Shown piece by piece: positions 22,484 to 52,144 of a stretch of DNA of 64,000 bases. Source of the stretch: Streptococcus oralis subsp. dentisani (GTDB lineage Bacteria > Bacillota > Bacilli > Lactobacillales > Streptococcaceae). Under the pieces are notes generated by a model. That model was not told where the DNA came from. It ran no database searches and saw only the letters and a list, made by a program, of their open reading frames with translations. Location of the stretch: assembly GCF_007475365.1 (NCBI RefSeq), contig NZ_CP034442.1, positions 1,054,001 through 1,118,000 of the forward strand, given 5' to 3'. Numbering within the stretch: the stretch's first letter is position 1; each line of letters starts with the position of its first letter. Made by a program: the position numbers and the translations under genes.

Positions 22484-25400
22484 TTAGTCTTCTCTCCTCT
22501 TTCTAGCAAGCAAGCCGTAGCCACTCATTACTCCGAGGAGTCCCAGCGCTACTAGACTAGCATCTCTTGTCGCTCCCGTATTTGGCAGCTCTTTACTTAC
22601 TTCTTCAACTTTTGCTGGTGTTGCTGAAAGAGCTTGATCCCTTGTTTGTGAGACTTGATCCTCTTTCGTTCCTACTTCAACAATTTCTGGAAGAGCTTCC
22701 TTGAGATCCTCAGTAGAATGAAGGGTGCGTTTGCCCTGAGCATCAACTTCTACAAAGCGACGAACTTGGCCTTCAACTCCTGCTTGAACTAGCTGGCGTT
22801 GTCCTTTGAGAAGGGCTGCATTTGGTCGTTCCTGACGTTCGAAGGAAACTGTCCCCTCTTCAATTTCCAGTTTCGGAGTTTCTAGAACTAAATCTTTCAC
22901 ACCTTCAGCTGGTTGGTTGCTTGATAGAACTTTTGTTCCAACTTCGGTGATTTCTGGGATTGCTTCCTTGACTATCTCAGTCGAACGAAGAGTGCGTTTG
23001 CCTTGGGTATCTACTTCTACAAAGTGACGAACTTGACCTTCAACTCCTGCTTGAACTAGCTGGCGTTGGCCTTTGAGAAGCTCGGCGTTTGGTCGCTCCT
23101 GATGTTCGAAGGAAACTGTCCCCTCTTCAATTTCTAGTTTCGGAATTTCTAAAACTAGATCTTTCACACCTTCAGCTGGTTGGTTGCTCGATAGAACTTT
23201 TGTACCAACTTCGGTGATTTCTGGGATTGATTCCTTGACTACCTCAGTCGAACGAAGAGTGCGTTTGCCTTGGGTATCTACTTCTACAAAGTGGCGAACT
23301 TGACCTTCAACTCCTGCTTGCACAACACGGCGTTGGCCTTTGAGAAGCTCGGCGTTTGGTCGCTCCTGACGTTCAAAGGCTGTTGTTTCAGTTTCAATAA
23401 CTAGTTCAGGGAGGGCCTCAACCGTTGGAGCTACTTCATTTGGATCCATGCTACCAACATGATGGCTTTCTTCTGCAGGAGCTAGTTTCTTATTCAGCTT
23501 TTCTTTCATTTCCGCAAAAGCTTGTGGAGTTGGCATCTCTGAAGCTAACAAAGTTTCTGCTTGTTCAATCAACTCAGCTTTAGGATCTTTTTCACGGACA
23601 GATTCGAGCAATCCTTCCAATTCCTCTCTAGCAGTCTGATAACGTTGATTTCCATCCAAGTCTGTCCCTGCTTGTTTCAACTCATTCAAAGCCTGGTTGA
23701 CTTCTTCTTGGCTAGCATTGTGGCTTTCTGCTACTGCTTTCGCTGCAGTGAGCTTCTCTACTAGTGTTGCTTGTTTGTCCTCACTTGAGAAGGTGTAGGC
23801 AAGGGTTGACTGACGGCCTTGGGCAGCAGTGATTTCTTGTTTGAGGTACTCATCGTTGACAGCTGCTTTTGGAGAAACCAAGACATCAAACTCAACAGTG
23901 TGTCCTTTATAATGCAAGGTCAAGGTTTGACGACCAGTCTTTTGAGCATCGTAGCCCGTAATTTCAACACCTTGATCTGTGAACGTATGCGTCTCTTCCG
24001 TCTCATCATCATAGAGAACTCCAAAGCGACCTTCTGCAAGATCCAGTTGCTCTCCTACTAGATAATCCGTTTTCGGTTTCTGAGTAATGTACAAACCTGC
24101 TACTTCTTTTGGTTTTCCTTCATCTTGACCTGTCACTTGTACCTTTAAGTCACCAGTAACTGGAAGTCCAAGGTAGTTGACTGTGAGCTTTTGTTCCCCT
24201 TTTTGATGAGCGTCGTATCCAGATACAGTCACACCTGAGTGAGTAAGGTTGATCAGTTCATCGTCTTGTCCCCCTTCGTATTGAACACGGAGAGTGCCGC
24301 CTCTAAGGTCAAGTTTTTCTCCCTCTTTGTAAACTGTCTTCTTCGGCCCTTTTTCAAGGCTAACCGCAGCAATTTTTCTCTCATCCTGCGGAATCGCTAC
24401 TGCCAAGGTGTTACTGATTTCTTTGCCAGGTAGTTGGGTACGATAGTAGAGGAGAGTTGGTTGCTTGTCAAAGCCCAATGGCGCTGTTGCCAAGTCGCCA
24501 CCATTTTCAGATTTCAAAGTTGCAATTGGTGTTTGTGAATCAGCCTTTTCGTAAACGGTGATGGTTGCGCCTGCCGGAACATCAGAGAAGCCTAGTTGAA
24601 CTTGGTGGTTTCCAAGTGAACGAGCAGCTACCTTAGCCATTGGAATATTTTGACTTTCTGTGTCCAAGGTTTCGTACATCTTCCAGTTATAGATACGAAT
24701 GGCCTTCCAAGGTGTTCCGTTATCAGATGTGATAACTTTTAGACGCCAGTCTTGAGCAGTAATTGGTTTGTCAAGAGTGATATCTGTCACGTGCGCTTTA
24801 TTGCCACGGACTTCCTTAGCTAACTTCCATTCACCATCCGCATCTTTATAATAAAGGTCAAAGTCTTTGGTGTTCATCAAACCGTCGTTTACGGATTCTC
24901 CACCAGCTCCCGCATGATCCATGACCCATCTAACAACACGACGTGGCTTGGTCAAGCGAATATCCACACTACCGCTCAACTGAGCTGAAGACCACTTATC
25001 TGACAAGCTAGTAATGGTACCGTTCAACATACCTTCAATGCCTTCTCCACCTTCAGTGTTTGGGAAAGTGCTACCAATTACCGTTGCCCCTGGAACAATA
25101 TTTTCAGCCAAAGGTCTTGGGAGAGTTGTATCCTGAACAGTCATGCCCCAGTTGAATGACGCAGTTGCAGCCTCAGAACGGAGTCCATTTTTACCAACTG
25201 CAACAACTTTCAATTCCTGAGTCCTACCAGTCGCATTAGCAGAGCGGCTAACTTTTGGTAAGTAGATGGTTGAAGCAGATGAACCTGTCAACAAACGCCA
25301 GTTGTCCCCGTCTTTTTCGTAGACTTCATAGAAATCTGCATCTTGGTTACCCGAAAATTGAACCACCGCTTCAGCTTCTTGGGCATTCTTGAGAGATTGT

Positions 25401-27433
25401 TTCACCACAGAAAGTCCCGTCGGCGCTTGTGGTGATTGGTGATTGTCTGAAATTGTTAATTGACCTAAGTTGAACTGATAATCTTTTACAGCTCCTTCAT
25501 GTTCGAAGAAGAGTTTGACTGCATAGATGGTTTTCCCAGCTAGTGAGCTGAGGTCAAATTCTTCATTTGTCCAGTTATCAGAAAGAGTCAGTTCTTTCCA
25601 TGCGGCTGCATCCTCAAATTTGTAGTCTGGAGTCGTAGAGAAGGCCATATAAACTTTCGAGCCTTTTCCTCCCTTGTGAGCAACACGAAGTTTGGTTTTC
25701 TCAGTTACTTCTAGTTTAGTAGAATACAAATTCACATCCTGGTCCGTCTTGCCAGCTACATGACCTGAGAATTTAAGAGAATTACCGCCATTGTAGGCAT
25801 CTGTAAAATCATATTCTGCACGAAGTTTTTCCCCTGTCGAAGTCTGCCACCAGCGCCATGTTGGCAAGACACCTGAAACCGAACGGTAGTTCCACTCAGA
25901 ATCCTTAGAAACTTTACCGTCTACAAACCACTTTCTACCGTGGCCTGTATTAAAAGAGGTAGTGAAGGTGCGTCCTACTGCTGGTGTCCGGTCCGCAACT
26001 AAATTAGCAATCCCATACCACTCTTTGTCCGCTGGTTTTTGAGCCGTTGGATCTCCTTGGTAACCTGTGAAGAAGATGTCTTCGTTCTTGTGGTAATCTT
26101 CTCCTGTTTTCCCTAGACTGGTAATCGTATCTGGTGCAAAAAGTCCTAACGACAAACGCAACTTACCTTTTTCATCTAAGAGGGCATCCCATTTGACTTT
26201 GGTCTTATAAGAACCACCCTGTTGCAATTCCAAGCCTGCAAAAACATCATATTGACTACGCTCTAGCCATTTTGCCATCTCCACAGAGTGGTCATTCTTT
26301 TCCTTGTTCCAGTTGAAGTTGGCAAAGAATTGATCCGCAGGGACCTTGTCACCTTCTTTTTGCATGAACTGGTAGTTGTAATCACCTAGACCATCTTCGT
26401 GGTAACGACCGTATTTGTAGGTCATGGCATCGTACCAAGCATACTTGATTGGGTGATTGACTTTAGCTGCGTATTCTTTTGTATAGAGCATGAATTGGCG
26501 CATTTTTTCACCAAGAGGTTCTACCAAATCGCCCGTTGTTTCCTGGTTGATGAAATAGCCATCAAATCCGTAATACTTAGCAAGATCGACAAGTTTTCGT
26601 GCGATAGGGAAGGTACCATCTGCATCTTGTTTCAAGGCAGCGGCAAATTTCTCTTGGTCAGCAATGCTGTTTGACCAGTTGAAAAAGAGTGTTCCATAAA
26701 CGGGAACTCCGTTGCGGTGACCAGCATCAATGACATCTGGAGTTGGAACTAGGCCTTCCCAGAAGACCATTGAATCCAAGTATTGCCAGTAATCAAAAGC
26801 GTAGGCCTTGAATTCTTCTCCACCGACAGAAGCGTGGTCTTTGGCCTTTGAGTTGGTATTTGCTAGCGCTTGAACTTTAGCTCTTCTGCTTGCTTTTTCG
26901 TTAACCAACTGACCTCTATGGCGCTTGGCAAGTTCAACTGAGGAACGGTTGATGGGATCATCCTCACGCGCACCCGGTTCCCATTTCAACAAATCCTCCC
27001 AAGTATCAAATTTGATTTCCTTTGGTCGGAGACTCTTTTCTTCATTTTTAGGAATGTCTGCTAGAGTCGGTTTGTCGGCTTTCTTCTCAGCCACTTGAGG
27101 AGCTTCCTCTGGTTTGACTTCTTCTTTTTCAGTTGGTTGAGCAGGTTTTTCAGTTTTATCTGTCGGAGTTGGCTTTGCTTCTTCTTTTTCATTAACCAGA
27201 CCCGTTATTGCTGGAGTGTTTTCTAAAATTGGTTGCTCAGCTACTTTATTCTCTGTTTCCGATAATTGTTTTTCGATAGCTGCGGTGTCTGGTTTAGCTG
27301 TTTCAGGGACAGCGACCTGTTCGGCAAGAGCTGGGCTTGCGAATAGAGCTGATCCAATCATTAAGGAACAAGCCCCGATTGATAGCTTGCGAATACTGTA
27401 ACGGCAACGTTTTTCAAAAAATAGATCTTTCAT
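22484..27433 (-). CDS. endoD: Cell-wall endo-beta-N-acetylglucosaminidase (GH85)
   Basis: A wall-anchored glycosidase of 1649 residues that cuts the chitobiose core of N-linked glycans, releasing host sugars. Order: YSIRK signal peptide (YSIRKLSIGACSLMIGS, residues 12-28) with an ALAEQ cleavage region; a Glu/Pro/Thr-rich linker; GH85 catalytic domain (about 140-470) with the catalytic pair Asn296 and Glu298 in GYFINQETTGD; a jelly-roll and fibronectin-like region; a discoidin-like segment; two bacterial Ig-like domains (near 1010-1160); a FIVAR-type helical segment; three tandem G5 repeats of 89 residues; and LPNTG, a hydrophobic span and KRRED. It looks intact. A cre site sits in its promoter. 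Confidence 0.93.
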   Translation of the reverse strand: MKDLFFEKRCRYSIRKLSIGACSLMIGSALFASPALAEQVAVPETAKPDTAAIEKQLSETENKVAEQPILENTPAITGLVNEKEEAKPTPTDKTEKPAQPTEKEEVKPEEAPQVAEKKADKPTLADIPKNEEKSLRPKEIKFDTWEDLLKWEPGAREDDPINRSSVELAKRHRGQLVNEKASRRAKVQALANTNSKAKDHASVGGEEFKAYAFDYWQYLDSMVFWEGLVPTPDVIDAGHRNGVPVYGTLFFNWSNSIADQEKFAAALKQDADGTFPIARKLVDLAKYYGFDGYFINQETTGDLVEPLGEKMRQFMLYTKEYAAKVNHPIKYAWYDAMTYKYGRYHEDGLGDYNYQFMQKEGDKVPADQFFANFNWNKEKNDHSVEMAKWLERSQYDVFAGLELQQGGSYKTKVKWDALLDEKGKLRLSLGLFAPDTITSLGKTGEDYHKNEDIFFTGYQGDPTAQKPADKEWYGIANLVADRTPAVGRTFTTSFNTGHGRKWFVDGKVSKDSEWNYRSVSGVLPTWRWWQTSTGEKLRAEYDFTDAYNGGNSLKFSGHVAGKTDQDVNLYSTKLEVTEKTKLRVAHKGGKGSKVYMAFSTTPDYKFEDAAAWKELTLSDNWTNEEFDLSSLAGKTIYAVKLFFEHEGAVKDYQFNLGQLTISDNHQSPQAPTGLSVVKQSLKNAQEAEAVVQFSGNQDADFYEVYEKDGDNWRLLTGSSASTIYLPKVSRSANATGRTQELKVVAVGKNGLRSEAATASFNWGMTVQDTTLPRPLAENIVPGATVIGSTFPNTEGGEGIEGMLNGTITSLSDKWSSAQLSGSVDIRLTKPRRVVRWVMDHAGAGGESVNDGLMNTKDFDLYYKDADGEWKLAKEVRGNKAHVTDITLDKPITAQDWRLKVITSDNGTPWKAIRIYNWKMYETLDTESQNIPMAKVAARSLGNHQVQLGFSDVPAGATITVYEKADSQTPIATLKSENGGDLATAPLGFDKQPTLLYYRTQLPGKEISNTLAVAIPQDERKIAAVSLEKGPKKTVYKEGEKLDLRGGTLRVQYEGGQDDELINLTHSGVTVSGYDAHQKGEQKLTVNYLGLPVTGDLKVQVTGQDEGKPKEVAGLYITQKPKTDYLVGEQLDLAEGRFGVLYDDETEETHTFTDQGVEITGYDAQKTGRQTLTLHYKGHTVEFDVLVSPKAAVNDEYLKQEITAAQGRQSTLAYTFSSEDKQATLVEKLTAAKAVAESHNASQEEVNQALNELKQAGTDLDGNQRYQTAREELEGLLESVREKDPKAELIEQAETLLASEMPTPQAFAEMKEKLNKKLAPAEESHHVGSMDPNEVAPTVEALPELVIETETTAFERQERPNAELLKGQRRVVQAGVEGQVRHFVEVDTQGKRTLRSTEVVKESIPEITEVGTKVLSSNQPAEGVKDLVLEIPKLEIEEGTVSFEHQERPNAELLKGQRQLVQAGVEGQVRHFVEVDTQGKRTLRSTEIVKEAIPEITEVGTKVLSSNQPAEGVKDLVLETPKLEIEEGTVSFERQERPNAALLKGQRQLVQAGVEGQVRRFVEVDAQGKRTLHSTEDLKEALPEIVEVGTKEDQVSQTRDQALSATPAKVEEVSKELPNTGATRDASLVALGLLGVMSGYGLLARKRRED
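22680..23420. repeat. Three tandem 267-bp repeats encoding G5 domains
   Basis: Near-identical units recur at exactly 267-base spacing (for example the CCTGACGTTC / CCTGATGTTC landmarks at 22831, 23098 and 23365). Each encodes an 89-residue G5 domain (GQR.LVQAGVEGQVRHFVEV). Such repeats can expand or contract by recombination. Confidence 0.93.
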
Positions 27434-41161: not shown

Positions 41162-42787
41162 TTAATTTACATAAATAGCCAGTGTTTGATAAGGTTTTAG
41201 AAGAATTGTTTCTGATACTTCTACATCTTCATAGTTAGAAAGCAAAATTTGTCCATTTTGGTAGACCACTGGCAAGTCGATTTCCACTTCTGTGGCATAA
41301 AAGTTATTGAGGACCAGTAATTTTTCATCCTCATACTGACGTTCAAAGGCATAGACTTGCTTACTGTCTTCAAAAGCTGGTTTGTAGCTTCCTTCTGAGA
41401 TAATCGGCATTTCCTTACGAAGTCGAATCAAGTTTTGGTAGAAGGCGAAAATTGGGCCTTGGATTTCATTTTCTACGTTGATGTGAGGGTAGGATTTTCC
41501 TGCCTTCAGCCAAGGAGTTCCTTTTGTAAAACCTGCATTTTCCGAAGCATCCCACTGCATAGGAGTTCGTGAGTTATCACGAGACTTAGCCTGAATAATC
41601 TGGAAGGCTTCTTCCTGACTTTTCCCTTCTTTTAAGAGCATCTGGTAAGCATTAAGCGACTCTACATCCACATAATCATCCATCGAATCATAATCAGGGT
41701 CAACCATCCCGATTTCCTCGCCCATGTAGATATAAGGTGTCCCACGTGACAGGTGAATGCTGGCAGCCAGCATGGTCGCCCCTTCATTACGGAAGTTTTG
41801 AATATCAATAAAACGGTTCAAGGCACGTGGTTGGTCGTGATTGTTCCAAAAGAGGGCGCTCCAGCCGTTTTTGTCACTCATTTCCTTGCCCCAGCTATGG
41901 TAAAGACCTTTCAACTCTTCGAAATCAAAGGGAGCTAAAGTCCACTTCTGCCCATCCTTGTAGTCCACCTTGAGATGATGGAAATTAAAGGTCATGGATA
42001 ATTCCTGACGTTCAGGTGACGAATAGAGGACACAGTTTTCCATGGTTGTCGAGGACATTTCCCCAACTGTCATAAAGCTATCGTCTGATCCAAAAGTGGC
42101 TTGATTCATCATGCGCAAATAGTCATGAACAATGGGCTTGTCTGTGTAAGCTGGCTTTCCTTCATTTTCAGGACAATCCACTAAAACCTCATCCTTGCCG
42201 ATTAAGTTAATCACATCAAATCGGAAACCTTTGACCCCCTTGTCTCGCCAGAAATTAACAACCTTGAAAAGCTCCTTGCGGACATTGGGATTGCGCCAAT
42301 TAAGGTCAGCCTGGGTCTCATCAAAGAGATGGAGGTAATATTTCCCTGTATCCCCGAAAGGTGCCCAGGCAGAGCCGCCAAACTTAGACTGCCAGTCTGT
42401 CGGTTGGTCTTGGATGAAGAAAAAGTCTTGGTAGTACTGGTCGCCAGCTAGGGCTTTCTGAAACCATTCGTGTTCTGTCGAACAATGATTGAGCACCATA
42501 TCCAGCATAAAGTCAATCTTGTGTTCTTTACCGACACGCACCATCTCCTCAAAATCAGCCATATCACCAAAAAGAGGATCTACTGCCATATAATCTGAAA
42601 TATCGTAGCCATTATCCCGTTGGGGGCTTGGATAGAACGGATTGAGCCAGACCATATCAACGCCCAGTTTGGCTAGATAGGGAATTTTTTCGATAATCCC
42701 ACGGAAATCCCCAATACCATTTCCAGTGGTGTCTTTGTATGATTTTGGATAGATTTGATAGACTACTTTTCCTTTATCAAGTGCCAT
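41162..42787 (-). CDS. treC: Trehalose-6-phosphate hydrolase
   Basis: A 541-residue GH13 enzyme splitting trehalose-6-phosphate into glucose and glucose-6-phosphate in the cytoplasm. The four GH13 regions are visible: DMVLNHCS, GFRFDVINLI with the nucleophile Asp, FMTVGEMSS with the acid Glu, and WNNHDQPR with the third Asp. GH13 members such as oligo-1,6-glucosidase are close, but the adjoining PTS gene and TreR-type regulator support TreC. It follows treP after 63 bases that carry a hairpin. Confidence 0.92.
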   Translation of the reverse strand: MALDKGKVVYQIYPKSYKDTTGNGIGDFRGIIEKIPYLAKLGVDMVWLNPFYPSPQRDNGYDISDYMAVDPLFGDMADFEEMVRVGKEHKIDFMLDMVLNHCSTEHEWFQKALAGDQYYQDFFFIQDQPTDWQSKFGGSAWAPFGDTGKYYLHLFDETQADLNWRNPNVRKELFKVVNFWRDKGVKGFRFDVINLIGKDEVLVDCPENEGKPAYTDKPIVHDYLRMMNQATFGSDDSFMTVGEMSSTTMENCVLYSSPERQELSMTFNFHHLKVDYKDGQKWTLAPFDFEELKGLYHSWGKEMSDKNGWSALFWNNHDQPRALNRFIDIQNFRNEGATMLAASIHLSRGTPYIYMGEEIGMVDPDYDSMDDYVDVESLNAYQMLLKEGKSQEEAFQIIQAKSRDNSRTPMQWDASENAGFTKGTPWLKAGKSYPHINVENEIQGPIFAFYQNLIRLRKEMPIISEGSYKPAFEDSKQVYAFERQYEDEKLLVLNNFYATEVEIDLPVVYQNGQILLSNYEDVEVSETILLKPYQTLAIYVN

Positions 42788-42810
42788 CTGTTTCTCCTTT
42801 TCTGATAAAA

Positions 42811-42833
42811 GGGAGGAACTTATGTTCCTTCCC
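42811..42833 (-). other. Hairpin between treP and treC
   Basis: GGGAAGGAAC pairs with GTTCCTCCC around a four-base loop, with one bulge, followed on the minus strand by a short T run (TTTT). It may be a partial terminator or attenuator that lowers treC relative to treP. Confidence 0.55.
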
Positions 42834-42850
42834 TGTTTGTGTTATTTTAA

Positions 42851-44818
42851 TTAGATTCGTGTAGCGACCATGAGAGCTTCCCCAGCTTGGATAGTTGTTG
42901 GATAAGTTCCAGTGATGGTCGCTGTATAAGCATCTTGATTGGTGATGATAACAGGAGTTTCTGTCACGAAACCTGCAGCCTTAATGACATCCATATCAAA
43001 ATGAATCAGTTTCTGACCAACTGTGACGTGGTCTCCTTGGGCTACAAGACTTTCAAAACCTTTGCCATCAAGACCTACTGTATCCATACCGATGTGGATG
43101 AGCAATTCTACCCCCTCATCAGAGACAATACCGATGGCATGCTTAGTAGGGAAAAGAACCGTCACTGTCCCATTGACTGGAGAAGTCAACTCGCCTTGGC
43201 TTGGTTCAATGACTAGACCTTGTCCCATGACACCTGATGCAAAAACAGGATCCGTCGCTTGACTCAATTCTTTCACTTGACCAGCAAGTGGGCTGACAAT
43301 CTCTACTGGAGCAAGGGTTACTGGTTCATGAGTCACAAATTCCGCTTCTTCTTGGGCAACGAATTCTGCTTGCAAGGCTGTATCATCTTCTGTTTTTGTA
43401 AAGAAGCCTGCCTTACGGAAGAAGAAAGTCAAGAGCATTGGAACAACAATAGCAACTAACATAGTTCCTGCAAACGGCAGCATGTATTGAGGTTGAATAG
43501 AGAGGATACCCGGCAAACCACCGATACCGATAGAAGCCGCCGTTACATTGAAAGTAACGGACAACATGCCCGCAAGGGCTGAACCGATCATCCCAGCTAC
43601 AAATGGATAGATGTATTTGACATTGACCCCAAAGAGGGCTGGTTCTGTAACACCGAGATAGGCTGAAATGGTTGCAGGAAGTGAAATTTGAGCCTCACGC
43701 TCATCATGACGATGCATGAAATAATAGGCAAATACGGCTGAACCTTGGGCAATGTTTGAAAGAGCAATCATTGGCCAGAGGGCAGTTCCACCAGCATCCG
43801 CAATCAATTGTGTATCGATGGCATTGGTCATGTGGTGCAGACCTGTGATGACAAATGGAGCATAGAGGGCACCAAAAATCGCACCGAAGAGCCATTTAAC
43901 TGGACCAGTCAAACCTGCCAAGACAACTGCGGAGAGGCCTTGCCCAATTGTCCAACCGATTGGTCCCAAGACAGTATGAGCCAAAATCAAAGCTGGAATC
44001 AATGACAAGAAAGGTACAAAAATCATCGAAATGACTTCTGGGATATGCTTGTGCCAGAAAATTTCAAGATAAGACAGACTCAAGCCTGCAAGCAAGGCTG
44101 GGATAACTTGAGCCTGGTAACCGATACGATTAACAGTAAAGTAGCCAAAATTCCAAACCCAGTTTGTAGCAATATCTGATGCAGGTGTTGAGGCAACTGC
44201 ATAGGCATTGAGCAACTGAGGTGAAACCAAACAGATCCCGAGAACAATTCCCAAAATTTGACTGGTTCCCATCTTACGAGAAACAGACCAGGTAATCCCT
44301 ACTGGTAAGAACTGGAAGATAGCTTCACCAGGCAACCAGAGGAAGTGATTGACACCTGACCAAAACTGAGAGGATTCTGTGATGGTCTTGCCATCCAACA
44401 TCGACCAATGAACACCTTCCAAGACATTACGGAAACCGAGGATCAATCCTCCGACAATCAAGGCTGGAATAATCGGTGTAAAAATCTCCGCCAGAGTGGT
44501 CATGACACGTTGGACCAGGTTTTGATTGCTCTTGGCTGCCGACTTGGCTGCTTCTTTGGAAACACCCTCAATGCCTGAAACAACTGTAAAATCATTATAA
44601 AAAATCGGCACGTCATTTCCAATGATTACCTGAAATTGACCCGCATTTGTAAAGGTCCCTTTGACGGCTGGAATCGACTCGATGACCTTGACATTGGCCT
44701 TCTTTTCGTCTCCGAGAACAAAGCGCATCCGTGTCGCACAGTGAGTTACGGCAGTGACATTCTCCTTACCTCCGATCGCCTGAAGCAGATCCTTGGCTTC
44801 TTGTTCAAATTTTCCCAT
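42851..44818 (-). CDS. treP: Trehalose PTS EIIBCA component
   Basis: A 655-residue fused phosphotransferase permease importing trehalose as trehalose-6-phosphate. It carries an N-terminal IIB domain with the phospho-Cys in THCATRMRF (Cys27), a IIC domain with about ten hydrophobic segments, and a C-terminal IIA domain with the phospho-His in LLIHIGMDTVGL. The ORF extends upstream to 44971, but the Met at 44818 has AAGGAGAA as ribosome-binding site. The promoter (44865-44893) overlaps a cre site; treR is divergent. Confidence 0.94.
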   Translation of the reverse strand: MGKFEQEAKDLLQAIGGKENVTAVTHCATRMRFVLGDEKKANVKVIESIPAVKGTFTNAGQFQVIIGNDVPIFYNDFTVVSGIEGVSKEAAKSAAKSNQNLVQRVMTTLAEIFTPIIPALIVGGLILGFRNVLEGVHWSMLDGKTITESSQFWSGVNHFLWLPGEAIFQFLPVGITWSVSRKMGTSQILGIVLGICLVSPQLLNAYAVASTPASDIATNWVWNFGYFTVNRIGYQAQVIPALLAGLSLSYLEIFWHKHIPEVISMIFVPFLSLIPALILAHTVLGPIGWTIGQGLSAVVLAGLTGPVKWLFGAIFGALYAPFVITGLHHMTNAIDTQLIADAGGTALWPMIALSNIAQGSAVFAYYFMHRHDEREAQISLPATISAYLGVTEPALFGVNVKYIYPFVAGMIGSALAGMLSVTFNVTAASIGIGGLPGILSIQPQYMLPFAGTMLVAIVVPMLLTFFFRKAGFFTKTEDDTALQAEFVAQEEAEFVTHEPVTLAPVEIVSPLAGQVKELSQATDPVFASGVMGQGLVIEPSQGELTSPVNGTVTVLFPTKHAIGIVSDEGVELLIHIGMDTVGLDGKGFESLVAQGDHVTVGQKLIHFDMDVIKAAGFVTETPVIITNQDAYTATITGTYPTTIQAGEALMVATRI

Positions 44819-44864
44819 TTGATTCTCCTTATACTTGTCAAAGCAAGTTTGACTTGATAGCTCT

Positions 44865-44893
44865 ATTGTAAACGATACCAAACTTGTAGGCAA
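44865..44893 (-). promoter_or_regulatory. treP promoter
   Basis: Minus strand: TTGCCT, a 17-base spacer, then TACAAT. Confidence 0.72.
44866..44880. promoter_or_regulatory. CcpA cre site in the treP promoter
   Basis: TTGTAAACGATACCA matches WTGNAANCGNWNNCW at every defined position and covers the -10 element of the treP promoter. Confidence 0.8.
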
Positions 44894-45002
44894 CTTGTTT
44901 GTTGAAAAAAGAGGATCTTTTTGTAATTTTTTTGGCACTTGTATGGTAAAATAGATACAGCTGTCCGTCAAACTAGACTAAAAACCCATTTAAGGAAGTA
45001 AA

Positions 45003-45716
45003 ATGAAGAAATACCAACAACTATTTAAGCAAATCCAAGAAACCATTCAAAACGAGACTTACGCTATCGGAGATTTTCTTCCTAGCGAGCACGAACTCAT
45101 GAAGCAGTATCATGTGAGCCGTGACACCGTCCGAAAAGCTCTGTCCCTACTCCAAGAGAAAGGATTAATCAAAAAGATAAGGGGACAAGGTTCTCAAGTC
45201 GTCAAAGAAGAAACGGTCAATTTCCCTGTCTCTAACCTAACCAGCTACCAAGAACTGGTCCAGGAACTTGGACTTCGCTCGAAAACCAATGTCGTCAGTC
45301 TGGACAAGATCATTATCGATAAAAAATCCTCACTGATAACTGGTTTTCCTGAGTTTCGTATGGTTTGGAAGGTGGTCCGCCAGCGTGTGGTGGATGACCT
45401 AGTATCCGTTCTAGATACGGACTATCTGGATATGGAACTGATCCCAAATCTCACTCGCCAAATTGCTGAGCAGTCTATCTATTCTTATATAGAAGACGAT
45501 CTCAAACTCCTTATTGATTATGCTCAGAAGGAAATTACCATTGACCACACCAGTGACCGAGACAAGATTCTCATGGATATTGGCAAAGACCCTTATGTCG
45601 TTTCAATCAAGTCAAAAGTCTATCTCCAAGACGGTCGCCAATTTCAGTTCACCAAAAGTCGCCATAAATTAGAAAAATTTCACTTTGTTGACTTCGCCAA
45701 AAGAAATCCGAAATAA
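45003..45716 (+). CDS. treR: Trehalose operon regulator (GntR family)
   Basis: A 237-residue GntR/HutC-type repressor: N-terminal winged HTH (LPSEHELMKQYHVSRDTVRKALSLLQEKGLI) and a C-terminal UTRA ligand-binding domain (KIRGQGSQVVKEE onward). It is divergent from treP and probably senses trehalose-6-phosphate. A terminator follows. Confidence 0.93.
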   Translation: MKKYQQLFKQIQETIQNETYAIGDFLPSEHELMKQYHVSRDTVRKALSLLQEKGLIKKIRGQGSQVVKEETVNFPVSNLTSYQELVQELGLRSKTNVVSLDKIIIDKKSSLITGFPEFRMVWKVVRQRVVDDLVSVLDTDYLDMELIPNLTRQIAEQSIYSYIEDDLKLLIDYAQKEITIDHTSDRDKILMDIGKDPYVVSIKSKVYLQDGRQFQFTKSRHKLEKFHFVDFAKRNPK

Positions 45717-45856: not shown

Positions 45857-45884
45857 TTGACAAATGCTAAACGACCATTAGAAT
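45857..45884 (+). promoter_or_regulatory. Promoter of the GH95 gene
   Basis: TTGACA, a 16-base spacer, then TAGAAT. Confidence 0.8.
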
Positions 45885-45934: not shown

Positions 45935-45949
45935 ATGTAAGCGATTTCA
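45935..45949. promoter_or_regulatory. CcpA cre site in the GH95 leader
   Basis: ATGTAAGCGATTTCA matches WTGNAANCGNWNNCW at every defined position. It lies about 50 bases downstream of the -10, in roadblock position, and just before the AGGAGGG ribosome-binding site. Confidence 0.82.
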
Positions 45950-48900
45950 GATAAACAAAGGAGGGTTTTATGAAAAAACACTTTTGGGAGAAATCCTGTC
46001 GCTATAGCATCCGCAAGCTGACGGTTGGGACTGCTTCTGTTTTACTGGGAGCTATTTTTCTAATCAACCACACTGTAGCTGCAGACAGTGTTTGAGGTCA
46101 AGCAAACTGAACCAAGCTCTGTCGAAACTATCACTAAGCCTGATAGTGAACCCAAAGCAGATGAAGCTACTGAAACTACAAATCCGTCTCTAGCCGAGAA
46201 TCCCGTAGTTCCCGAAAGCAAGCCAGCTAACGAGACTCAGACGACAAATAGTCAAGCTAGTGAAGAAGCCATTGTAGAAGCTAAAGAAAATAAGGAACCT
46301 GAAAAAGCAGATCAGCCGGTGACAAAGCAAGAAAACTATCAACTCAACTACGATCAACCAACAGCTCCCTCCTATGATGGATGGGAAAAACAAGCCCTTC
46401 CTGTCGGAAACGGAGAAATGGGAGCCAAGGTTTTCGGACTCATTGGGGAAGAGAGAATCCAGTACAACGAAAAGACCCTCTGGTCAGGAGGACCACAACC
46501 CGATAGCACCGACTATAACGGAGGAAACTACAAGGAGCGCTACAAGGTCTTGGCTGAGATTCGTAAAGCCCTCGAAGCTGGTGACCGCCAAAAAGCAAAA
46601 CAACTAGCTGAACAAAATCTAGTTGGACCAAACAACGCCCAGTATGGACGTTACCTAGCCTTTGGAGATATCTTTATGGTCTTTAATAACCAGAAAAAAG
46701 GACTAGATACTGTAACAGATTATCATCGTGGTTTGGATATCACTGAAGCCACTACGACAACTTCTTACACCCAAGATGGGACGACCTTCAAACGCGAAAC
46801 TTTCTCCAGTTATCCTGATGATGTCACTGTGACCCACTTGACCAAAAAAGGAAACAAGACACTTGACTTTACCCTTTGGAATAGCCTGACAGAAGACTTG
46901 CTTGCTAATGGCAACTACTCTTGGGAATATTCCAACTATAAGAATGGTCATGTCACTACAGATGCAAACGGAATCCTTCTAAAGGGAACTGTCAAAGATA
47001 ACGGCCTAAAATTTGCATCCTATCTAGGAATTAAAACGGACGGAAAAGTGACTGTTCAGGATGAGACTCTGACCGTTACAGGCGCAAGCTATGCAACCCT
47101 CTATCTCAGTGCCAAGACTAACTTTGCTCAGAATCCAAAAACCAACTATCGAAAAGACATTGACCTCGAAAAAACGGTTAAGGGTATTGTAGAAGCAGCT
47201 AAGGCCAAAGACTACGAAACACTTAAAAAGGACCATATCAAGGATTATCAAAGTCTCTTTAACCGCGTTAAACTAAATCTAGGCGGAAACAAGACTGCTC
47301 AAACGACAAAAGAGGCCCTTCAAGGCTATAACCCAGAAAAAGGGCAAAAATTGGAAGAACTCTTCTTCCAATACGGACGTTATTTACTCATCAGTTCGTC
47401 TCGTGATCGGACAGATGCCCTTCCTGCCAACCTACAAGGAGTCTGGAATGCCGTAGACAATCCACCTTGGAACGCTGACTACCACCTCAATGTCAACTTG
47501 CAAATGAACTATTGGCCAGCCTACATGAGCAACCTTGCTGAAACAGCCAAGCCAATGATCAATTACATTGACGACATGCGCTATTATGGTCGTATCGCTG
47601 CCAAAGAATACGCTGGCATCGAATCCAAAGACGGACAAGAAAATGGTTGGCTGGTCCACACTCAAGCAACTCCATTTGGCTGGACTACTCCTGGTTGGAA
47701 TTACTATTGGGGTTGGTCGCCAGCTGCTAACGCTTGGATGATGCAGAATGTCTATGACTATTATAAGTTCACCAAGGATGAGACCTATCTCAAAGAAAAG
47801 ATTTACCCAATGCTCAAGGAGACCACTAAGTTCTGGAACTCCTTCTTACACTATGACCAGGCCAGTGACCGTTGGGTGTCTTCTCCATCCTACTCACCAG
47901 AACACGGTACCATCACCATCGGAAACACCTTTGACCAGTCGCTAGTCTGGCAATTATTCCACGACTACATGGAAGTCGCCAACCATCTGAATGTCGACCA
48001 AGACTTAGTCACAGAGGTCAAGGCTAAATTTGACAAACTAAAACCACTTCACATCAATAAAGAAGGACGCATCAAGGAATGGTACGAAGAAGACAGCCCA
48101 CAATTCACCAACGAAGGCATTGAAAACAACCACCGCCACGTTTCCCATCTAGTTGGGCTCTTCCCAGGTACACTCTTTAGCAAAGATCAAGCTGAATACC
48201 TAGAGGCTGCGCGTGCTACCCTCAACCACCGTGGAGATGGGGGTACTGGTTGGTCTAAGGCTAATAAAATCAACCTCTGGGCTCGTCTCTTAGACGGTAA
48301 CCGCGCCCATCGTTTACTCGCCGAACAGCTCAAGTATTCAACCCTAGAAAACCTTTGGGATACCCACGCACCATTCCAAATCGATGGAAACTTTGGAGCA
48401 ACCAGTGGGATGGCAGAAATGCTCCTGCAATCTCATACTGGCTATATTGCACCATTGCCAGCCCTTCCAGATGCTTGGAAAGACGGTCAGGTTTCTGGCT
48501 TGATTGCCCGTGGTAACTTTGAAGTCAGCATGAAGTGGAAAGATAAAAACCTTCAAAGCTTGTCCTTCCTTTCAAATGTCGGTGGAGATCTAGTTGTAGA
48601 CTATCCAAATATCGAAGCCAGTCAGGTTAAGATCAATGGCAAACCAGTCAAGGCAACTATCCTCAAAGATGGCCGCATCCAACTGGCAACACAAAAAGGT
48701 GATGTCATTACCTTTGAACATTTCCCTGGTCGTGTAACCAGTCTGACAGCAGTTCGACAAAATGGAGTCACTGCCGAACTCACCTTCAACCAAGTAGAAG
48801 GCGCTACCCACTATGTCATCCAAAGACACATGAAAGACGCGTCTGGCCAAACCTCTGCAAGCAGAGAATTTGTAACCAATCAAACCCACTTTATTGACCG

Positions 48901-49006
48901 ATCGCTGGATCCTCAACTCGCCTATACCTATACTGTCAAGGCGATGCTGGGCGAAGTTTCTACACAGGTATCCGAAAAGGCTAATGTCGAAACCTACAGC
49001 GAGTTG

Positions 49007-49846
49007 ATGGATGACCGAGATAGCCGCATCCAGTACGGAGCTGCATTTGGAAACTGGGCAGACTCAGAATTATTTGGAGGAACAGAGAAATTTGCTGACC
49101 TTTCAAAAGGGGACTACACAGACCAAGACATCACTGCAACCATTCCTTTCACTGGCGTTGGTATTGAAATCTATGGACTGAAATCGTCCGAACTAGGTCT
49201 TGCCACTGCTAAAATTGATGGTAAAGAGGTCGACGAGCTTGACTTCCATACTGCTGGGGCAACTGAAAAAGGTAGTCTCATCGGTCGCTTTACAGGATTG
49301 TCTGACGGACCTCATACATTGACTCTTAGTGTTAAACGTGAGCACAAAGGACGTGGAAGTGAACGCTCGAAAATTTCATTAGATTACTTCAAGATCCTAG
49401 CAGGAACAGGTAATTCAATTGAAAAAATGGATGATCGCGACCCTCGTATCCAGTATGGTTCCCAGTTTAAAGACTGGTCTGACCCTGAACTCTACGGAGG
49501 TACCGAAAAATACGCTGACATCAACAACAGCGACTCTGGTACAGCTTCAGAAGCTCAAGCAACCATTTCCTTTACAGGAACGGGCATTCGTATCTATGGT
49601 TTGAAGAGCCTTGCGCTTGGACGAGCGCGTGTGACACTAGATGGCAAAGAAATGCCAAGTCTAGACTTCTACACTTCAGGTGCAACTGAAAAGAGGGCCT
49701 TTATTGGCGAATTTACAAATCTTACTGACGGTCCGCACACACTGACATTACAAGTTGACACAGATTCGCCAGAAGGTCGCAAGAAAATTTCTCTAGACTC
49801 CTTTGATATCATCAAAGCTCCAGCTGTTGGTTTAGATAGCCCTGGC
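49007..49846. repeat. Two tandem 420-bp repeats in the GH95 gene
   Basis: The MDDRD-RIQYG landmarks at 49007 and 49427 begin two 140-residue modules of similar sequence, each with a GVGIEIYGLKS- or GTGIRIYGLKS-type strand, probably carbohydrate-binding or beta-sandwich modules. Confidence 0.88.
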
Positions 49847-50209
49847 ATCGCGCCTCTTAAGGAAAATGACAAAACCATTTCCTTAAGCCTACCAGCTGGA
49901 GATTGGGAAGCCATCGCTGTGACCTTCCCTGGGGTCAAAGATCCTCTGGTTTTGCGCAAGGAAGATGAAACACATCTGGTTACAAGTGGAGAGCAAACCC
50001 TATTGGCTATCAAAGACAATCAAGTTCAAATCCCAATCCCTGAGGCTACTGATCGACAAACTGGAAAAGCGATTGAAGCTTATACCATTCAAGGAAATAC
50101 CACAAGCAGTCCTGTCGTAGCCGTCTTTACTAAAAATGATGAGAAGAAAGTTGACGAGAGTCAGCCAACTACAAGCAAGGGGAACGAACCAGCTCCTACT
50201 GTTGAAAAA

Positions 50210-50512
50210 CCTGAATATACCGAACCTATCGGAACCGCAGGTCAAGAAGAGCCACCTACAGTAGAAATTCCGGAGTATACCGACCCTATCGGAACTGCTG
50301 GGCAAGAGGAAGCTCCTACTATTGAAAAGTCTGAATACACCGAACCTATCGGAACCGCAGGTCAAGAGGAACCGCCTACAGTGACAATTCCTGAATACAC
50401 CGAACCTATCGGAACCGCAGGTCAAGAGGAAGCTCCAATAGTAGAAAAACCTGAGTACACTGACCCTATCGGAACTAGTGGAGTTCAGGCCGCTCCAACC
50501 CTCATCCGACCT
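50210..50512. repeat. Five tandem 60-bp repeats in the GH95 gene
   Basis: Each unit encodes PEYTEPIGTAGQEE-PPTVE or a variant (20 residues). They form a Pro/Glu/Thr-rich wall-spanning stalk and could vary in number. Confidence 0.93.
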
Positions 50513-51107
50513 GAGTATCAGTTACGCACCTTGAAAGATAAAAAGACGGGTGTCGAAATTATCGGTGGAGTTGCCGACTTAGAAGGAATTTCTCACGTTT
50601 CTAGCCGACGTGTCCTAGCTCAAGAACTCTTTGGCAAGACCTATGATGCTTACGACCTACAGCTTAAAAATCCAACCGATCATAGCTTGCAGCCAAAAGG
50701 CTCTGTTCTGGTTCGCTTGCCTATTTCAGCTAGAGTAGAAAATATCTACTACATCACTCCGACCAAGGAGTTGCAAGCCCTTGATTTCACCGTTCGAGAC
50801 GGAAAGGTAGAATTCATCACTAATCATTTCAGTACCTATGCTGTCGTCTATCAAGCTACTGGAACAACCTCTAACACAGAGGAAAAACCAAGTACTTCAG
50901 ATACAGAAACCTTGGCACACGAGACTAAACAACTTTCAGCTAGTTCTAACCTTGCTAAAACTGGAAATCATTCTCCTAAAGAAGAACTTCCAGCAACAGG
51001 AGAAGCGTCCAACCCACTCCTCTTCTTAGCAGGCCTCAGCCTAGCCCTCACAGCCACTTTTATGTTAAAAGGGAGAAAGGATGACTCTAACTGACCTTTA
51101 AGCACGC

Positions 51108-51163: not shown

Positions 51164-52144
51164 TTACAGTAGGTATAAAAAGGCTAGGGTCAAGAGACTT
51201 GCTAGAAGCCCAACTCCCCAAAAGAAGAAGTCAACTTTCCACTCGCTCCAAGGATTGCCCTTGCCTGAGAATCCTCCAAGCTCAAAATGATGATGCACAG
51301 GTGTCATACGGAAAATACGCTTCCCGCCACTAAGTTTGAAGTAGGTAACTTGCATCATAACAGAGCTTGTCTCAAAGACATAGATAATCCCAATCAGTAA
51401 AAGAGTCCATTCTTGGTGGAGGGCCATAGAGATTGCTGCCAGCATCCCACCTAAAGCCAAACTTCCCACATCACCCATGAAGACCTTGGCAGGCTTGTGA
51501 TTAAAGACGAAGAAGCCTAACAAACCACCAATCATGGAAAGAATCACAAGTAGGATATCGAGTTGATTTTGCATATAAGCAATCACACCGTAGGCTGACA
51601 AGCTAATCACCACGGAAATACTCGCTAAGCCGTCAATCCCGTCAGTCAGATTCACCGCATTAGAAAAACCTACCAGCCAGAAAAGGGCAAAGAAGATATA
51701 GAAAATACCCAGATGAAGAGGATAGCCAAAGACTGAAAGCATGTCACCACCACGCTCATAAAAGAGGTAGAAAATCACTCCTCCAAGCAGCTGGAGAGCA
51801 AGTTTTTGCTTGGGATTCAAGCCCTCGTTGATCTTGCGAAAGACCTTGAGGAAATCATCCAAAAAACCTACCAAACCATACAAAACCAAGATAAACAAAA
51901 TCATGCTAACATTGTTGGTCAATTGTTGGGTAAAGAGAGCGACAAGGAAACTCACAACTACTGCAACGATCAGGAAGACAAGACCTCCCATAGTTGGAGT
52001 CCCAGCTTTAGCTTGGTGTTGCTTGACATCCTCGTGCATCTGCTGACCTGTAATCTGTGCTTTTCGATAAAATCGGATAAAGGCTGGAATGCCGATCAGG
52101 GTCAATAGAAAGGCAAGAATTCCAGCACTAATGGAACTAATCAT
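51164..52144 (-). CDS. mraY: Phospho-N-acetylmuramoyl-pentapeptide transferase
   Basis: A 326-residue membrane enzyme making lipid I from UDP-MurNAc-pentapeptide. Ten transmembrane segments are apparent; active-site signatures are GTPTMGGL near residue 50, [11 protein letters not shown] with the catalytic Asp pair, [12 protein letters not shown] and MTPVHHHFE. Last gene of rsmH-ftsL-pbpX-mraY, separated from pbpX by one base. Confidence 0.97.

Follow-up and report, generated by a model that had tools for sequence, protein, structure and literature searches.

A YSIRK signal peptide out of frame with a predicted wall-anchored GH95 α-1,2-fucosidase in the recorded genome of Streptococcus oralis subsp. 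dentisani

PMC10154630 names Glu E566 as the GH95 catalytic acid of AfcA, the α-1,2-fucosidase of Bifidobacterium bifidum, together with N421 and N423 as its base-pair asparagines. Among streptococci, the S. pneumoniae α-1,2-fucosidase SpGH95 (Hobbs et al. 2019) is listed with LPXTG anchoring in a table of the review PMC9937060.

The locus described here lies in the window, i.e., the whole stretch of 64,000 nucleotides of S. oralis subsp. dentisani that was analyzed. It encodes a protein with a GH95 catalytic domain (PF22124, 2.4e-148) and the accompanying N- and C-terminal sandwich domains (PF14498, 4.2e-55; PF21307, 1.8e-26), whose best match in the PDB was AfcA itself (2EAB, E 4e-148). In the 2eab alignment, inspected by eye and with a chain numbering that is one higher, E566, N421, N423 and D766 of AfcA were conserved, while the position of E485 was occupied by Gln. 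Based on its domains and on these conserved residues, the window enzyme is a predicted GH95 α-1,2-fucosidase.

Two overlapping reading frames

The features of the locus are compiled in Table 1. The YSIRK peptide was not in frame with its own protein, since the peptide frame is closed by the TGA at 46093–46095 after an overlap of 8 nt with the enzyme frame, which is a different one. This was directly observed in the ORFs and the Pfam matches, and bears out the preliminary description, according to which the signal-peptide frame from 45970 ends in TGA at 46093 with the enzyme in the next frame. The further claim that the remainder of the 1668-codon gene carries no other lesion held as well, as no internal stop was found in 46088–51094.

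Table 1. Features at and around the GH95 gene (window positions).
Feature	Position	Strand	Remarks
TreR, trehalose operon repressor, upstream neighbour	45003..45716	+	TIGR02404 2.9e-86
Sigma-70-like promoter match, 11/12	45857..45884	+	weak
Shine-Dalgarno-like stretch AAAGGAGGG of signal-peptide ORF	45957..45965	+	read from sequence
YSIRK signal-peptide ORF	45970..46095	+	41 aa, ATG start; PF04650 6.4e-13, TIGR01168 2.3e-14
Junction, enzyme GTG overlapping signal-peptide TGA	46088..46095	+	frames differ
GH95 α-fucosidase-like LPXTG-anchored protein without signal peptide	46088..51094	+	GTG start, 1668 codons
GH95 N-terminal, catalytic and C-terminal domains	46343..48706	+	residues 86-348, 376-779, 781-873
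60/120-bp tandem repeats overlapping SIALI-17 repeat matches	50191..50475	+	NF043031 3.5e-24
LPXTG cell-wall anchor	50969..51082	+	PF00746 2.7e-06, TIGR01167 1.3e-05
MraY, downstream neighbour	51164..52144	-	TIGR00445 3.5e-78

Promoter-like sites numbered two in a 601-base scan, compared to a mean of 1.0 in shuffled sequences. Within the signal-peptide ORF (46033–46052, + strand), a stem resembling a terminator precedes a T-rich stretch, probably by chance; the scanned region had two terminator-like sites, where shuffled sequences had 0.4 on average.

With regard to gene neighbourhood, the GH95 gene is located between a racemase cluster and mraY in two other loci (L084 and L118), the former being placed as in the window. 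Neither treR nor mraY was found in the stretch examined around three S. oralis copies (L086, L087 and L126). The trehalose genes treC, treP and treR (window 41162–45716) adjoin the GH95 gene in the window and in L116 and L097, and were not found beside it in L084, L118, L123 or L125.

The same gene in other streptococci

We searched 284 Streptococcus species genomes, one per species, of which 111 gave matches with an E-value of 1e-30 or lower, and the 73 with the closest catalytic part were examined for the signal peptide; the genome of the window (G000) is included in both figures. Sixty-nine of these 73 copies were full-length, with 89.5–100% identity in the catalytic part, and four were in pieces at 82–98%. 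The YSIRK peptide was present in 68 of the 73, starting with GTG instead of ATG in two of them (G197 and G074). The preliminary description had proposed a comparison with the same gene in other genomes, and its outcome was clear: the peptide and the catalytic part were joined in one frame in 67 of the 68 YSIRK-bearing copies and broken in G000 alone. Joined frames, which were directly observed, occurred in many species, among them S. oralis BCC10 (L084), whose wall-anchored protein has the same domains as that of the window; catalytic identity among the S. oralis-type wall-anchored copies was 97–99%. Furthermore, the YSIRK motif and the catalytic part are 325 nt apart in the window, compared to 324 nt in the majority of its closest relatives. 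Taken with the joined frames of the relatives, this one-base difference indicates that the recorded sequence truly carries a lesion and that the two ORFs are not paired by chance.

As a lesion, the frameshift is of a common kind. Since related species have the frames joined, it looks like an ordinary mutation of recent date, or else an isolated error in the sequence, and not like a special switch, which is in line with the preference of the preliminary description for an ordinary recent indel of either origin.

Within the genome of the window, nine YSIRK matches were above the cut-off and eight of them fell within open frames of 562–2421 aa, so a general decay of YSIRK proteins was rejected. 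Another YSIRK/LPXTG protein is encoded within the window itself, in a single open frame of 1649 aa (22484–27433, - strand); it resembles GH85 endo-hexosaminidases and carries Big_3 and G5 domains. Elsewhere in the genome, G000:C1:106292-106600 (L002) shares about 50% identity with the C-terminal repeat region of the GH95 protein and lies within an open frame of 1103 aa that has a YSIRK match of its own upstream. No second GH95 copy that could serve as a backup was found, the match being the only one genome-wide. A single GH29 α-fucosidase match was also present (G000:C1:1369230-1370048; L184).

Explanations of the frame break

The reading that we favour, with a probability of roughly 0.65, is a strain-specific one-base length change at the end of the YSIRK signal peptide, by which the surface display of the GH95 enzyme was recently lost. 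In its favour are the joined frames of the other 67 YSIRK-bearing copies, the rarity of frame changes in the compared part of the assembly, the constraint on the catalytic part, the eight YSIRK matches in open frames and the damage of other kinds or at other places in further copies of the gene (G123, G222, G106, G069, G127 and G092). Ribosomes starting at the well-placed ATG of the signal peptide would halt at the TGA at 46093, so no exported enzyme would be produced. The usual route of export and anchoring is closed to a protein without a YSIRK peptide. A restart at the GTG at 46088, which overlaps the stop, is possible by position alone and would yield at most a little unexported protein; no Shine-Dalgarno-like stretch was seen by eye before this GTG. 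The enzyme would thus lack export and is probably barely translated. We infer that the change is carried by the cells themselves and is not confined to the assembly, and that they produce little enzyme, if any. A literature search on this lesion returned nothing in titles or abstract openings, which is not proof of absence.

The main competitor, which we consider somewhat unlikely, holds that the gene is intact in cells and that a lone error arose in sequencing or assembly. The genome of the window is a single contig of 1,926,555 bases, of which 864 kb were compared with 800 kb of a relative (G112). Among the 550 ORFs of the latter, 433 had a hit in G000, and 366 of these passed the thresholds and were compared (416 kb), with 67 left out. 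One of the 366, the GH95 gene itself, was frame-changed in G000, and two others had an inner stop. The reverse comparison (609 ORFs, 442 with a hit, 362 compared) gave a single frame change along with four inner stops, and a smaller version of the check on 117 genes gave one frame change and four stops, three of which lay at residue 4 of ORFs that had been started too far upstream. Indels are therefore rare in the compared part and the assembly is not generally indel-prone, so that an indel-rich assembly was rejected for these 366 genes. This rarity, together with the very short base run at the junction, weighs against an error; nonetheless, a few residual errors would also produce such a count over 416 kb, and the uniqueness of the broken state to G000 among the genomes examined is likewise in keeping with such an origin.

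The state of the enzyme body, open and constrained as in relatives, fits an error too. Over 800 codons of the catalytic part, G000 had an average pairwise dN/dS of 0.033 against 24 S. oralis-type copies, which places it inside the 0.028–0.044 spread of the 25 S. oralis-type means (G000 included), and the lesion therefore looks either recent or not real, although pairwise dN/dS would not reveal constraint that had been relaxed along a short terminal branch. As the nearest relative compared differed by about 104 synonymous changes in these 800 codons, the change is not closely datable by comparison.

Far less probable is a mixed on/off state or recoding, in which a +1 ribosome shift or length switching would leave some enzyme displayed. 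The close overlap of the stop with the new frame and the openness of the enzyme ORF over 1668 codons would agree with it, but the arrangement recurred in none of the 67 other YSIRK-bearing copies, and the 67 of 68 copies in frame argue against a conserved programmed frameshift, which was rejected on this ground. No simple repeat tract was found at the junction by a scan that is blind to very short runs and that returned only the 60/120-bp C-terminal repeats; repeat-tract phase variation was rejected accordingly, and the tolerated on/off state suggested in the preliminary description found little support. In the prfB frameshift context, the shift codon is closely preceded by a stimulator that resembles a Shine-Dalgarno sequence. 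The resemblance to prfB that had been put forward was not upheld, as no such stretch was visible by eye just upstream of the junction and no examined relative shares the arrangement. The RNA fold across the junction was also unremarkable (z-score -1.84; 9 of 200 shuffled sequences folded equally well or better).

Copies without the export end and known fucosidases

Two further copies departed from the usual start. In G222 (L071), a deletion covers the signal peptide and the linker, in a region matching about 45946–46304 of the window. In G123 (L018), which is counted among the 67 in-frame copies, the usual start position has neither ATG nor GTG, and the upstream part of the open frame contains none of ATG, GTG and TTG either. 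Both seem, from their sequences, to have lost export of the GH95 gene with the remainder open. Four other copies are split inside the gene into two or three frames (G106, G069, G127 and G092; L064, L066, L067 and L070). The export end was thus hit in three of seven damaged copies (G000, G123 and G222 versus the four split ones), a small number in which G000 is the starting case. In addition, G122 is in frame but shorter (1302 aa), the anchor is missing from the end of G071 (970 aa) and of G072 (946 aa), and the copies of G202, G212 and G213 run into a contig end. The LPXTG pattern search found no motif in seven copies (G178, G008, G279, G006, G220, G063 and G281). Draft assemblies are present among the relatives, and the damage in some copies may be error too.

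A different form was observed in four genomes of S. infantis/timonensis type (G067, G066, G242 and G271; L072–L075), which carry short GH95 frames of 820–833 aa whose catalytic part is 89.5–91.6% identical to that of the wall-anchored form. Neither a YSIRK peptide nor LPXTG was found in these four copies, and the C-terminal part of the GH95 protein had no match in them. The named records of short copies (L122–L125) are S. infantis UC921A, S. infantis SO, Marseille-Q0941 and S. timonensis. Two of these loci were checked (L123 and L125), and both have the short copy next to the same racemase cluster as the surface forms. In a catalytic-domain tree of 69 full-length copies and four outgroups, from which split copies were left out, the short copies fell among S. 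infantis-type surface forms and not in one clade, with poor support (17 at the joining node). Their mean pairwise dN/dS to nine surface forms was 0.044–0.080, compared to 0.026–0.044 among those nine; judged by this measure, the short copies are still constrained, with a slight apparent relaxation in G271.

The existence of these four constrained copies without signal and anchor, next to the racemase cluster in the two checked, and of the seemingly export-less G222 and G123 with the remainder open, would be compatible with a useful allele of the window, whose enzyme is kept in the cytosol through a restart at GTG 46088, but we give this very little credence, as that GTG has no Shine-Dalgarno-like stretch ahead of it (by eye), the long wall module is still present and would be useless inside the cell, and recency alone accounts for the open frame.

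G222, G123, the split copies and the short forms make surface display of the GH95 enzyme seem dispensable. This suggests more than one loss of display within the mitis group and the persistence of an export-less form in some species. A broader proposal, which we regard as quite doubtful, is that the wall-anchored GH95 gene of the mitis group repeatedly loses its export end with the enzyme kept and moved from the wall to the cytosol, by routes that would comprise a frame change (G000), an apparent loss of the start codon (G123), a deletion (G222) and an established short form (four genomes), with the window allele as an early step.

If the favoured loss of surface display is real, the isolate would be devoid of a surface α-1,2-fucosidase even though its annotation would list a GH95 enzyme, and its glycan use would be mispredicted from gene lists alone. 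Overall, this is an ordinary case with a modest evolutionary point. Compared to AfcA, the window enzyme differs in its C-terminal modules and anchor. SpGH95, as far as the table of the review describes it, can be likened to the window protein by family and anchoring alone, both being GH95 proteins with an LPXTG anchor; unlike SpGH95 as listed there, the window protein has its signal peptide out of frame.
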